Source: a virus. Taken from it: DNA of 30,886 nt. The notes under the pieces were generated by a model. It was not told where the DNA came from, made no database searches, and saw only the letters and a list, made by a program, of their open reading frames with translations. Positions within the stretch are counted from its first letter, which is position 1. Every line of letters begins with the position of its first letter. The stretch spans positions 1 to 30,886 of IMG/VR virus record IMGVR_UViG_3300020162_001996. One strand, 5' to 3'. The translations under genes were made by a program, and so were the position numbers. Positions 2,713 to 30,379 of the stretch are shown here, in pieces.

Positions 2713-2877
2713 TTAAAGTTCTTCTATAATACCTAATATTTCAGCTCCAAGAAAAGCAGCGGCCATTACATATAAATCACCATATACCATTCCCCAAATA
2801 CATCCTAATATTCTACATACTGATTTAGTAATACTAGTAAAAAAATGCCAATTTGTTTTTGATTCTTTTTGTTGCAT
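2713..2877 (-). CDS. Small membrane protein, 54 aa
   Basis: A short frame starting MQQKESKTNWHFF and ending EILGIIEEL. Residues about 20-50 are hydrophobic, with a Cys-Arg-Ile-Leu-Gly-Cys stretch and a MAAAFLGAEILGII segment, consistent with one or two short membrane helices behind a basic N-terminus. Support for it being real comes from promoter P1 directly upstream (its -7 element ends 17 bases before the ATG), an A-rich leader (AATAAAGGTT) like that of its neighbours, and the close fit between the 67-aa and AT-hook genes. I do not recognise the family. As an early-type small membrane protein it could act on the host envelope, but nothing in the sequence shows this. Confidence 0.6.
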   Translation of the reverse strand: MQQKESKTNWHFFTSITKSVCRILGCIWGMVYGDLYVMAAAFLGAEILGIIEEL

Positions 2878-2894
2878 AACCTTTATTTATATAT

Positions 2895-2921
2895 TAAATA
2901 TAGTGAAAAAATTGCGGTCAA
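2895..2921 (-). promoter_or_regulatory. Promoter P1 (TTG-N16-TAnnTTTA)
   Basis: On the minus strand TTGACCGC begins at 2921, followed after 16 bases from the TTG by TATATTTA (2902-2895). This matches the Bacteroidetes -33 TTG / -7 TAnnTTTG pattern except for the last base. The element starts five bases past the stop of the 67-aa gene and points at the 54-aa gene. P2 and P3 have the same TTGACCGC block and the same spacing. Confidence 0.7.
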
Positions 2922-2925
2922 TCAA

Positions 2926-3129
2926 TTACTTAATATATTTGACAGCGATTCTATACTCATTCATTTCTTCCTCATTCATAAGGCCAAATAACACATATAT
3001 TTGACACTCTTTCTCATATAACTTATTGAATATCTTTGCCTCATAGTCATTGTTGACATCTAAGGTATCCATGATCTTTGTCTCATTAAACAAATCCACT
3101 GCTTCTTGTACTAATTGTTCGTTTATCAT
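2926..3129 (-). CDS. Hypothetical early-type protein, 67 aa
   Basis: A small acidic protein (starts MINEQLVQEAVDLFNETK) predicted to be mostly helical, with no signal peptide or membrane segment and no recognised domain. A lone Cys sits in KECQIYVLF. It lies between promoters P2 and P1, so it is a single-gene unit with its own promoter upstream and the next gene's promoter starting a few bases past its stop. The ATG at 3129 is preceded by AATAAAAGTT, the A-rich leader shared with neighbouring genes. This arrangement is typical of early phage genes that alter the host, but the function is unknown. Confidence 0.62.
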   Translation of the reverse strand: MINEQLVQEAVDLFNETKIMDTLDVNNDYEAKIFNKLYEKECQIYVLFGLMNEEEMNEYRIAVKYIK

Positions 3130-3152
3130 AACTTTTATTTCTTATTATATAA

Positions 3153-3179
3153 TAAATTTAACATAAGAGCCGCGGTCAA
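3153..3179 (-). promoter_or_regulatory. Promoter P2 (TTG-N16-TAnnTTTA)
   Basis: The minus strand reads TTGACCGCGGCTCTT from 3179, with TAAATTTA at 3160-3153, 16 bases after the TTG. A perfect 14-bp palindrome, TTATTATATAATAA, overlaps the end of the -7 element and is also present at P3 but not P1. It lies between the 63-aa gene stop and the 67-aa gene start. Confidence 0.72.
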
Positions 3180-3185
3180 TCAATC

Positions 3186-3377
3186 TTAATAACCACGTTC
3201 CATTTCAAATTGACGTTTTTCGTGGTCAACCTCACTATATACGTCTAAATTTAGATATGTATTATTCCAAAAATTATGAAATAAATACTCCTTAACCCAT
3301 TCCGGATTAGTAGAGTTTATAATATCGCGTTCCTCCGCTGTTAAAACTTCCTTACTCATTAATTCTTGTGTGTTCAT
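3186..3377 (-). CDS. Hypothetical early-type protein, 63 aa
   Basis: A small acidic, aromatic-rich protein (starts MNTQELMSKEVL, ends FEMERGY) with no recognised domain, signal peptide or membrane helix. A GTG nine bases upstream (3386) would add three residues. I prefer the ATG at 3377 because it leaves the same distance to the promoter's -10 region as in the P2-driven gene (21 bases) and a purine-rich leader of similar length. The gene has its own promoter, P3, and is followed within seven bases by P2, so it is a one-gene unit. Function unknown. Confidence 0.6.
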   Translation of the reverse strand: MNTQELMSKEVLTAEERDIINSTNPEWVKEYLFHNFWNNTYLNLDVYSEVDHEKRQFEMERGY

Positions 3378-3400
3378 ATCTTTCACTTTTTATTATATAA

Positions 3401-3427
3401 TAAAGATATGCCAAGAGTCGCGGTCAA
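3401..3427 (-). promoter_or_regulatory. Promoter P3 (TTG-N16-TAnnTTTA)
   Basis: The minus strand reads TTGACCGCGACTCTT from 3427, with TATCTTTA at 3408-3401, 16 bases after the TTG, followed by the same TTATTATATAATAA palindrome seen at P2. It begins within the T-rich tail of the upstream terminator, so transcription stops and restarts within about 60 bases. Confidence 0.73.
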
Positions 3428-3459
3428 TAAAGGAAGCGGTTCGGAATTAACCGAACCGC
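3426..3459 (-). terminator. Intrinsic terminator after the nuclease gene
   Basis: A perfect 9-bp inverted repeat (arms GCGGTTCGG and CCGAACCGC, 6-base loop) lies at 3436-3459. On the minus strand it is followed by TTCCTTTATT. It sits 21 bases past the stop of the PD-(D/E)XK nuclease gene and closes the replication operon ahead of promoter P3. Confidence 0.82.
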
Positions 3460-3480
3460 CTCTATATAGTATAAATTTTA

Positions 3481-4266
3481 CTAATCTGTGATTTTAAATG
3501 ATGTTGGTAATGTCTCAGTTACTGGTTTGAAGTTTGGATTTTCAAGTTTATATATTTCATATATGTTCATAAACATTTTAAAGTTAGCTTCAATATCACT
3601 TATTGTTTTTAACTCCCATCCTTTACCTTGTATTTTATCCTTTTTACCTTCACTACGAGTGTTAGCTTTAAGCCATAAAATACCTGTTTCCTCTATTTTA
3701 TCAGTGTGGGTTTCATTCCATGCTTCAGAGTAAGCGGCTAATTGTAAGTCATATGATGTATGGAGTGAGTTAGATGTTTTAATATCTAATAACCACAATT
3801 TTTCATTCATGCGAACTACTAAGTCAGCTGTACCAGCATACTTATGTTTGTCTGAAAATAAATGATACTCGCTTACTATGAGTTCTGGTTTGTGTGTGTT
3901 CCAAAAGTCAGCGAATTTAAGAATCATTTTCCACACATCCATACTGTACATTGCTTTTCCATCGTTATCAAGCCAATGTATTTCATTACCTTGTAAAAAT
4001 GAATCAATAGCGTTATGTACTTGAGTACCTTCACCTGCTGCTTTAGAGGCAATAATATCTGAGTTATGTCCTACGTCTTTTAACCAGTTGTGAAAAAACT
4101 GATTTTTAGGGAAATAATTCAATACTGATGTTACTGATGGATAGTATTCTTCTCCACGTCTATAAAAACGAGAGTCCAATACATTTACTTGCCTATCTCC
4201 CTCATTGTAATCTACAATGCGTTTGATTTTAGGGTCTTTAATTATGTTGACATTTCTATCAATCAT
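3481..4266 (-). CDS. RecB/Cas4-like PD-(D/E)XK exonuclease
   Basis: A 261-aa nuclease of the RecB-like PD-(D/E)XK group. Visible motifs are GEGTQVH with His84, Glu133 in VSEYHL, Asp148 in GTADLV, the DIK core Asp161-x-Lys163 in LLDIKTS, and QLAAY with Gln175, the RecB-family motif. These residues bind metal and cut DNA in the family, so this is probably an exonuclease acting in replication, recombination or host DNA breakdown. The length suits a stand-alone phage enzyme with no helicase domain and no iron-sulfur cysteines, unlike Cas4 proper. Its ATG overlaps the primase stop (ATGA), so the two are probably co-translated. A strong terminator follows. Confidence 0.85.
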   Translation of the reverse strand: MIDRNVNIIKDPKIKRIVDYNEGDRQVNVLDSRFYRRGEEYYPSVTSVLNYFPKNQFFHNWLKDVGHNSDIIASKAAGEGTQVHNAIDSFLQGNEIHWLDNDGKAMYSMDVWKMILKFADFWNTHKPELIVSEYHLFSDKHKYAGTADLVVRMNEKLWLLDIKTSNSLHTSYDLQLAAYSEAWNETHTDKIEETGILWLKANTRSEGKKDKIQGKGWELKTISDIEANFKMFMNIYEIYKLENPNFKPVTETLPTSFKITD

Positions 4267-5225: not shown

Positions 5226-5654
5226 CTAGGCCAAATCTCTAGTAAAAAACTTACCTAGTATATTATCATTGTAACTGTTAGTACCTGGAATTAAGCAATC
5301 AAATTTACATTGATAATGCATTTCATAGTATGTAAGTTCCTTTTTTGATTTACATGGTTTGAGTATTAAACACTCAAAAAACATTGGACTTAGTTCATTA
5401 ACATCAGTTAGTAATTCTTTAGATGAACCCCAATATGTTTTCCAATCGCTTTCAACACGAACAATTTCATGTGTTGGTTTACGACCTGGAGTGACTGGTA
5501 ATGCAGCAAGTTGTTTTTTGGTTAATTTTTTCTTTTTGTTGTACCAAAAATATTTCTTACCAATGTAAAATTTACTATTAGTTAAGTTTGTAATTTTGTA
5601 AACAAAACCGATATAATCTTCGGGATCTAATTTATCCCAATAATTCCATTTCAT
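5226..5654 (-). CDS. GIY-YIG family endonuclease, free-standing
   Basis: A 142-aa protein with a degenerate GIY-YIG pair: GFVYKI at 16-21 and FYIG at 29-32. A lysine-rich insertion (33-62) follows, then YWGSSKEL (74-81) and Glu111 in TYYEMH, the position of the metal-binding Glu of the family. The C-terminus SYNDNILGKFF is probably a DNA-contact segment. There is no separate DNA-binding domain such as homing enzymes carry. It sits between a tail adhesin and the primase, a junction where a mobile endonuclease gene could have landed, but it could equally act in DNA breakdown or repair. A candidate late motif lies 12 bases upstream of the ATG. Confidence 0.75.
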   Translation of the reverse strand: MKWNYWDKLDPEDYIGFVYKITNLTNSKFYIGKKYFWYNKKKKLTKKQLAALPVTPGRKPTHEIVRVESDWKTYWGSSKELLTDVNELSPMFFECLILKPCKSKKELTYYEMHYQCKFDCLIPGTNSYNDNILGKFFTRDLA

Positions 5655-28808: not shown

Positions 28809-30002
28809 TTATTTGGTAATATATTTAACCAATTCTTTATTTAACATCATTAATTTAAATTTACCTGGATTGCTATTATAAATCGATTTAACCATATTAT
28901 AACTTACATCCGTAGCAAATATTTTCTCGGTAATTATTTTGGCTATACGTTCTATAAGTGGTTTTTCAACCGTATTTTCTTTAGCATAGAACTCTAAATA
29001 GTTACTAACCCTTGTACCTAATGTTGAGGCAATATCTGCGCGATATGCTTTGTCTTTACCTACTAGGCTCTTAAGTGTGTTAAGTACATACTGTTCATCT
29101 TGTGACATGATATTTTCTGGTGAAATCATCTTATCTAATTTATTGTTAATGAACATAGTAAACAAAGTACTAAACTCACTACCAACTGAACCCTCTCCAA
29201 TCATTTGAATTAGTGGTAACTGGTCTTCAAATGTTTTAATTGAACTGATACTGTTAAAGAACATACTAACACTTCTACTGTTAATTTCTTTAGTAACTAA
29301 TTCTGGATGCATCAATAAGAAGTTAATACAACGACCATCTAGCTTATTCTCTTCAGCCCACTTACCCCAACATTTAAGATCAAATTTCAAATTAACACTA
29401 ATGAACCTCGTTTTTTGAGCGTTGTCAATACTGTTAACTAAATAATCTCCATTATCAGGATTACTTGTAAGAATGATATGCCAATCTTTAGGCAACTTCC
29501 AACTAATATATTGTTGGCGGTCAATTAGCTCCATTACAGCTTGAATGAATCTCATATCAGCTCTATTCCAGTCATCCAATAATAGAATACCACCATTTGT
29601 TTTTCCACTAATCCATTCAGGTGGACAGTAACTCATACGATTCAAACCTGTTGATTCAAATCCTTTCTTACGATAGTCCTCAACTGAATTCTCATCTACC
29701 CATTCAGTCACTTTTTTATCTTTCATTTCAAATTGACGAATTGGAAAACCAACCAAGTCACCTATTTCCTCAATTTGTGCAAGGTTCAATTTAACAAAAT
29801 TCAATCCTAACTCATCTGCTAACTGAATAATAGAAGATGTTTTACCAATACCTGAGTCACCTACTACTTCAGTACTCACCATTGGTTTATTATTTTCTTG
29901 CAGATAACGATTGTTATCAATAATGTGTTTCAAAAAGTCCTTCAATTCATGGACATTTAATGATACAGTTGCGTTTGTTTTTGTTGTTGATTTCTTAGCC
30001 AT
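28809..30002 (-). CDS. MoxR-type AAA+ ATPase
   Basis: A 397-aa ATPase. Walker A is GDSGIGKT (48-55), Walker B is ILLLDDWN (139-146) and sensor 1 is TSNPDNGDY with Asn181. The order and the Asp-Trp-Asn-Arg-Ala-Asp after Walker B fit the MoxR group of AAA+ proteins. The C-terminal 200 residues are helical and less conserved. MoxR proteins usually act with a vWA-domain partner as a chaperone or metal-insertion pair; here the partner is two genes upstream. It follows the 123-aa gene by five bases and closes the operon with a terminator. Confidence 0.85.
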   Translation of the reverse strand: MAKKSTTKTNATVSLNVHELKDFLKHIIDNNRYLQENNKPMVSTEVVGDSGIGKTSSIIQLADELGLNFVKLNLAQIEEIGDLVGFPIRQFEMKDKKVTEWVDENSVEDYRKKGFESTGLNRMSYCPPEWISGKTNGGILLLDDWNRADMRFIQAVMELIDRQQYISWKLPKDWHIILTSNPDNGDYLVNSIDNAQKTRFISVNLKFDLKCWGKWAEENKLDGRCINFLLMHPELVTKEINSRSVSMFFNSISSIKTFEDQLPLIQMIGEGSVGSEFSTLFTMFINNKLDKMISPENIMSQDEQYVLNTLKSLVGKDKAYRADIASTLGTRVSNYLEFYAKENTVEKPLIERIAKIITEKIFATDVSYNMVKSIYNSNPGKFKLMMLNKELVKYITK

Positions 30003-30007
30003 TTTTC

Positions 30008-30379
30008 TTATTTTTTATTATACTTAAATTTAAAATCACTACTGAGGTCATCATTTGGAACATATGGATACCATTCACCATTATCAAAATCTGAACTGTC
30101 CTCAACTAGTATATATTTTGATGTTAACATAATATTGCCTGTGACTATTACATAAGTGAACCGAGCACGAATCTCATTTTTATTGTTTGTAAATAATGCA
30201 AAATGTAAACCCAAACATTTATTATTTAGTTGATTAACAAATTCAGCAACATTAATATCAGTGAAATCAGCGTTATTAAGAATAGCTAAACCCATTCTAA
30301 TATTATCCTGGTCTTCACTATTAAACATGCTAATCAATAATTCAACAGTGTCATTATCTAATACATGAACATTCTCCAT
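30008..30379 (-). CDS. Hypothetical protein between the vWA and MoxR genes, 123 aa
   Basis: An acidic 123-aa protein with a helical N-terminal half (DTVELLISMFNSEDQDNIRMGLAIL) and a beta-rich C-terminal half (RARFTYVIVTGNIMLTSKYILV, then WYPYVPNDDL). No catalytic motif, membrane helix or signal peptide is seen. The start overlaps the vWA stop by one base (TAATG), so it is co-translated with that gene and is probably a third component or adaptor of the MoxR/vWA pair. Not recognised as a family. Confidence 0.68.
   Translation of the reverse strand: MENVHVLDNDTVELLISMFNSEDQDNIRMGLAILNNADFTDINVAEFVNQLNNKCLGLHFALFTNNKNEIRARFTYVIVTGNIMLTSKYILVEDSSDFDNGEWYPYVPNDDLSSDFKFKYNKK

Follow-up and report, generated by a model that had tools for sequence, protein, structure and literature searches.

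A lineage-wide class of promoter-like repeats before exchangeable small genes in T4-like Bacteroidetes phages

Arrays in which a promoter recurs in front of one small gene after another have a described counterpart in T4-type phages, the promoter-early stem-loop (PeSL) cassettes (Arbiol 2010; Comeau 2014), as outlined in PMC4503421. According to that outline an early-type promoter is repeated between the small ORFs of variable regions, which undergo modular shuffling, and the locus described here resembles it in both respects; one of its repeats (P3, below) also forms a joint of terminator and promoter. That such sequences can be of practical use is known from archaeal viruses, in which anti-defence genes were found through an early promoter that they share (PMC11065993). 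As a phylum, Bacteroidetes are dominant in the gut as well as in lakes and seas, and phage takeover of their transcription is little known. Their sigma-A consensus consists of TTTG at -33 and TAHHTTTG from -12 to -5, with transcription starting 4-5 nt further (PMC6847099; PMC2483708); T-12, A-11, T-8, T-7, T-6 and G-5 of this -7 box are nearly invariant (PMC6847099), and in F. johnsoniae the box is TAHHTTT, with starts 4-5 nt downstream (PMC6847099).

The DNA analysed here (the window) is an IMG/VR virus record of 30,886 bases and 31% G+C, with all of its main genes on the minus strand. Its baseplate protein is 46% identical, over the full length, to those of Flavobacterium phage immuto and Microcystis phage Mel-JY01; its exonuclease is 56% identical to that of immuto, and a primase gene adjoins the exonuclease gene in both. 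The window thus carries the baseplate wedge, primase and exonuclease homologues that mark T4-like Bacteroidetes phages (relatives of Immutovirus), and to judge from these similarities it is a fragment of a T4-like myovirus, the host of which, given immuto and the promoter type, is most likely a member of the Bacteroidetes.

Several features lie outside the main argument. The gene at 1453-2202 encodes a P-loop kinase whose Pfam match is Zeta-toxin / polynucleotide-kinase-like, and that at 5226-5654 a SegE-like GIY-YIG homing endonuclease (Pfam, E=3e-26); the label 'NAD synthetase' borne by the PHROG of the latter, and by an immuto gene, is likely an annotation error in public records. The sequence ATATTTATA occurs six times on the gene strand (minus strand 5675, 10248, 16593, 20000, 26363 and 28759) and never on the opposite one, mostly just 5' of gene starts, and is a candidate late promoter. 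In some related contigs the corresponding position 3' of the exonuclease gene is taken by genes for outer-membrane beta-barrel / TonB-dependent-receptor-like proteins of 748-1092 aa (L139:6812-9058, L169:6404-9682, L128:6826-9786, L140:6906-10178; Pfam Plug, OMP_b-brl_3/4, CarboxypepD_reg). A full receptor-like gene is unusual in a T4-like phage, and a role as receptor decoy or in superinfection is possible.

The repeats of the window and their class

The preliminary description held that a promoter had been copied three times, each copy sharing TTGACCGC, a 16-base gap from TTG and TAnnTTTA. All of these elements are present, on the minus strand, in three putative promoters: P1 (TTGATTGACCGC-N11-TATATTTA, 2925-2895, -7 box 2902-2895), P2 (TTGATTGACCGC-N11-TAAATTTA, 3183-3153, -7 box 3160-3153) and P3 (TTGACCGC-N11-TATCTTTA, 3427-3401, -7 box 3408-3401). 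The choice of TTG did not hold: the one at -33-like host spacing (N20) is the upstream one, that is, the first TTG of TTGATTGACCGC, and it is present in P1 and P2 and missing from P3. The pattern TTGACCGC-N11-TAnnTTTA matches the window three times, always on the minus strand, with no match on the other strand, none to the reversed pattern and none in 2000 Markov shuffles; the motif is thus not equally common inside genes elsewhere in the window. A position matrix trained on other genomes, the window being held out, scored P2 at 56.6, P3 at 50.8 and P1 at 46.3 bits, against 0.6 bits for the best of 100 shuffles. These counts and hold-out scores exclude a chance origin of the motif. A sigma-70-like -35/-10 reading was likewise rejected: TATAAT stands 24 bp from TTGACC, and P1-P3 are not built from a properly spaced TTGACA/TATAAT pair.

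P1-P3 are the only strict matches in the window; a weaker site had been missed. This degenerate sequence, TGACCTC-N11-TAAATTTA (30050-30025, minus strand), precedes a gene for a MoxR-like AAA ATPase (28809-30002) and, at 3.7 bits, is the sole site in the window other than P1-P3 to score above all shuffles. Many relatives carry a TGACC(T/C) version at the equivalent place, and we therefore regard it as a fourth, weaker member. A fourth copy of TTGACCGC, at 29524-29517, lies within a gene and has no -7 box.

Relatives were found through the PD-(D/E)XK/Cas4-like exonuclease gene (3481..4266, minus strand), which served as the anchor of the variable locus and yielded 47, and by motif scanning of viral contigs. 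They show that the repeats are promoter-like modules, as supposed, and that these belong to a lineage-wide class and are not simply copies of one local sequence. The class pattern, TGACC(G/T)Y-N11-TAWMTTTA with an AT-rich leader, is found in one lineage of T4-like Bacteroidetes phages, with the consensus T(T/A)GAT-TGACCGCRRYT..TT...TAWMTTTA and TATAA within a few bases after it. Spacing is rigid: of the 103 distinct GACCGC sites in contigs that bear the motif, 79 are followed by TAnnTTT after exactly 11 bases and none at any other distance; the -7 box of all 79 has A as its eighth base. Orientation is equally strict, TGACCKY-N11-TAWMTTTA lying on the gene strand in 76 of 76 cases in 13 related contigs, with no occurrence opposite or in controls. 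Typically the stop codon of the preceding gene lies 5-11 nt upstream of the box, the leader is kept nearly to the ATG (in the motif-bearing contigs), the ATG most often follows 30-31 nt past the start of the -7 box, and the ORF behind is mostly one of 50-90 aa. Non-structural genes, namely those for DUF932, RecA/KaiC-like ATPase and MoxR-like ATPase proteins, also stand behind class promoters.

Two accessory elements are less general. The 14-bp palindrome TTATTATATAATAA reported for P2 and P3 is indeed there (3155-3142 and 3403-3390); as a conserved element it did not survive comparison, being exact in only 40 of 112 non-redundant copies among the relatives, and for this reason we discard it as an operator and regard it as a variable AT-rich start region rather than part of the functional core. 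A stem-loop terminator with a 12-bp stem (3433..3462, minus strand; terminator scan) lies directly before P3, after the exonuclease gene, and the resulting terminator-promoter joint recurs in L131, L156 and L157. The preliminary description had each promoter start within a few bases of a stop codon or terminator tail; no terminator separates the units from one another. Stem-loops accompany only P3 and about five other copies (~6/112), and transcription should therefore continue from one unit into the next.

The box also turns up inside a gene: in L127:8071, L131:6923, L149:6865 and L156:6914 the LTAEE codons of the 63-aa gene read TTGACCGCGGAAGA, a copy that has no -7 box and is absent from the window. 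It may be a coincidence or the scar of a past recombination event.

Small genes and their exchange

The genes behind P1-P3 are small and of no recognised family, as described; the claim of one gene per promoter fails at P1, which heads two consecutive genes. Behind P3 lies a 63-aa protein (3186..3377, minus strand; ORF start corrected to the ATG at 3377), which is acidic (pI 4.6), has a mixed predicted fold of moderate confidence (pLDDT 80) and has homologues in 11 related loci. P2 precedes a 67-aa protein (2926..3129, minus strand), likewise acidic (pI 4.4) and predicted to form a three-helix bundle (pLDDT 95.7). P1 is followed by a 54-aa hydrophobic, probably membrane, protein (2713..2877, minus strand) and then by a 160-aa protein (2699-2217, minus strand) with three AT-hook-like repeats of the KRGRP(K/R) type. 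The homologue of the 160-aa gene in L041 lies directly behind a TGACCGC promoter of its own. The KRGRP(K/R) repeats stand in tandem at the end of the protein, in relatives as well, and the repeat DNA aligns out of register.

Searches of the window's small proteins against Pfam and PHROGs gave no significant match, and the best PADLOC hit (E=0.007) was not meaningful. The predicted fold of the 63-aa protein matched nothing in the PDB, that of the 67-aa protein nothing in the PDB or BFVD at E<=0.001, and tblastn with both proteins against 50,697 phage records found none. Given this want of family, PADLOC and fold matches, it is from position and from analogy with the SPO1 takeover module and the archaeal anti-defence genes that a host-directed or anti-host function suggests itself as plausible. 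The same lack of any family, fold or defence-related match, together with the gain and loss of units, could be taken to mean that the promoters are real and the small genes neutral passengers – unneeded ORFs that come and go. We consider this unlikely, since both families are conserved over wide divergence (identity down to 43% with 16 invariant columns for the 63-aa family, down to 47% with 18 for the 67-aa family) and the prediction for the latter is a well-folded domain. Acidity is a common property, 71% of 63 small array proteins having a pI <6.

The arrangement in related phages bears out the modular character attributed to the locus: promoter-like modules before small genes recur as arrays, with five tandem units in L147/L020. 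In an all-against-all comparison the small proteins fall into many families, several of them with differing neighbours. Single small genes are exchanged at the promoter repeats, as comparisons of the window with L062, L169, L127 and L149 make plain. From the 63-aa gene through P2 to the ATG, the window is all but identical to L062; there the window continues with the 67-aa gene and L062 with an unrelated 56-aa gene, and similarity resumes at P1, then once more at the 160-aa gene. In L169 the stretch of terminator and P3, and everything from P1 onward, correspond to the window, with another gene in the interval. L127 and L149 lead from the 67-aa gene directly to the 160-aa gene, the unit of P1 and the 54-aa gene being absent, and L131 has other DNA, with no match, in its place.

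The promoters themselves do not follow their genes. Mean differences among promoters are 12.1 of 46 positions within a gene family, 12.7 at the same locus and 13.8 in unrelated pairs, and the promoter nearest to P2, from another phage (2 of 46 differences), drives another gene family. Strict co-inheritance of promoter and gene is rejected on these figures, promoters of the same family differing as much as those of the same locus. Because gene exchange is bounded by promoters and promoter similarity tracks neither family nor locus, these comparisons point to the promoters behaving as recombination blocks.

The repeats mark the boundaries of exchange, and conservation of the leader extends almost to the ATG; both would also be expected of sites for recombination or replication, or of conserved leaders for translation, with only an accidental likeness to promoters. 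We think this very unlikely in view of the sigma-A type -7 box at a fixed distance from the upstream box, the unbroken gene-strand orientation (76/76), which extends to single genes outside the arrays, and the presence of host-type TTG-N20-TAWMTTTA at equivalent positions in sister lineages.

We prefer, and hold to be probable, the reading in which a lineage-specific promoter class is coupled to cassette exchange of small genes. P1-P3 and the site at 30050 would form one class, specific to this phage lineage, from which the host's RNA polymerase would transcribe ahead of DNA replication. Its -7 box, TAWMTTTA, would be of the Bacteroidetes sigma-A type; TGACC(G/T)Y would stand at a rigid distance from it, near positions -30 to -24, and the A/T-rich leader would suit translation without an SD sequence. 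Starts are expected some 4-5 nt after the -7 box. From each promoter the tiny gene downstream would receive a short leader and, no terminators standing between units, transcription would add up along the array as upstream promoters read through. The repeated promoters would at the same time provide blocks of homology at which recombination between related phages would exchange, add or remove individual genes, each delimited by promoters, making of the locus a fast-changing store of small accessory genes that probably act on the host.

Host sigma-A and a possible phage activator

A central issue is what reads the box. TAHHTTT is present in all phage copies; its final base is A, not the G of the host consensus, in 112 of 112; part of the search patterns fixed this A, and counts in which any base was allowed there also gave A only. 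TTG at the N20 spacing of the host -33 element is found in 40 of the 112. The uniform A and the scarcity of TTG mean that plain sigma-A recognition is not self-evident.

Nor does the box look like a host element. The strict motif gave nine scattered matches in 84,980 cellular genomes, with no enrichment; one of them, in a Chryseobacterium (L233), is promoter-like, intergenic and single, and in 60 genomes of that bacterium's family TTGACC-N13-TAHHTTTR occurred 46 times, against 108 for the reversed control. We reject a host promoter class on the strength of the scattered matches and the below-control count, and the TGACC box is phage-specific, since hosts show no enrichment.

Sister lineages use plain, host-like promoters. 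Immuto has 24 GTTG-N20-TAWMTTTAG sites, all on one strand (control 0), nearly all of them within 60.9-76.2 kb (MW353176.1, L196) before small genes in some 24 tandem units; their leader, GGTATCAATAATTAAAA, is strikingly conserved, and the same version occurs in 64 viral-contig stretches. Other T4-like contigs of 155-172 kb carry 14-39 gene-strand copies of TTG-N20-TAWMTTTA and 1-4 on the opposite strand; with the spacing set to N17 the count is 0-4 per strand.

Both promoter classes meet in G041, of the window's own lineage, where they precede different genes: plain TTG-N20 stands before DNA polymerase, Hsp20 and a DNA-binding protein, and TGACC before small genes, DUF932, the RecA/KaiC-like and MoxR-like ATPases and a 76-aa helix-turn-helix-like protein. 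This last protein (L384:6328-6558), with an HTH_3 match of E=0.014 that falls short of the curated cut-off, is conserved in six further contigs; itself behind a TGACC-type promoter in G041, it is a candidate regulator of the class.

We judge the chances evenly poised that the TGACC box is read by host sigma-A alone, and put its being read with the help of a phage-encoded activator only a little below even. One form of the latter possibility is that TGACC sites are activator-dependent 'middle' promoters, at which a phage protein bound near -30 replaces the sigma contact at -33 in the manner of MotA, the TTG-N20 sites being the true early class. The geometry TGACC-N13-TA is near that of T4 middle promoters, in which the MotA box (TGCTTtA) lies 12+-1 bp from the -10 box and replaces the -35 element (PMC2988021); the host -33 TTG is usually absent while TGACC is kept at rigid spacing, both classes occur in G041 before different genes, and the box is not enriched in the 60 genomes of the host-type family. 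Against it, sister lineages place their small arrays, DUF932 and the MoxR-like ATPase behind plain TTG-N20, and TTG at host spacing is kept in P1 and P2. We rate such middle promoters as a real possibility, somewhat short of even. More tentatively still, and clearly under even, TGACC may define a phage-controlled class for Bacteroidetes RNA polymerase, in which an activator appropriates sigma as MotA does at about 10-20 promoters per genome, mostly in front of swappable tiny genes.

Comparison with known systems

The analysis makes the promoter code of one abundant T4-like lineage explicit and searchable, gives a sister code for immuto, an isolated phage, ties dozens of small gene families to that code, and offers a sequence-level snapshot of gene exchange. 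As in archaeal viruses, the code could serve as bait for fast-evolving, possibly anti-host or anti-defence genes.

Several described systems share one or other aspect of this organisation. The conserved early promoter of archaeal viruses likewise places one regulatory sequence before many small accessory early genes and is usable as bait; it differs in being of TATA/BRE type, and anti-CRISPR function has been shown in the archaeal viruses only (PMC11065993). The host-takeover module of SPO1 is also a cluster of many, mostly small genes, aimed in that phage at host processes (PMC6873191); function has been shown for SPO1, its host is Gram-positive, and there is no evidence of homologous proteins. 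The SAS/ESAS elements of cluster K mycobacteriophages are short repeats before many small non-structural genes (PMC3203893), but SAS occupies the position of the ribosome-binding site, with 3-7 bp between it and the start codon (PMC3203893), whereas the present repeat is promoter-like and further upstream.

T4 middle promoters, with a MotA box centred at -30, are alike in that a phage-specific box replaces the -35/-33 element, and its distance from the -10/-7 box is almost equal in the two; the sequence differs (TGACC against TGCTT), and the activator is here a candidate only. The arrays of immuto (MW353175-MW353177) resemble the present ones in their approximately 24 tandem units of promoter and small gene, TAWMTTTA, conserved leader and DUF932 in the regulon; they differ in having TTG at exactly N20, as in the host, the leader GGTATCAATAATTAAAA and no TGACC box.

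The closest known kind is the T4 PeSL cassette. Measured against PeSLs as outlined in PMC4503421, the present repeats combine a Bacteroidetes-type -7 box with TGACC in place of sigma-70 elements, belong to phages of another host phylum, and carry the stem-loop of the composite in only ~6 of 112 copies, in the window only at P3. Lacking both the composite terminator and the sigma-70 elements by which PeSLs are characterised there, the class is not filed among them: on that outline it works like PeSL shuffling, yet is not a PeSL.
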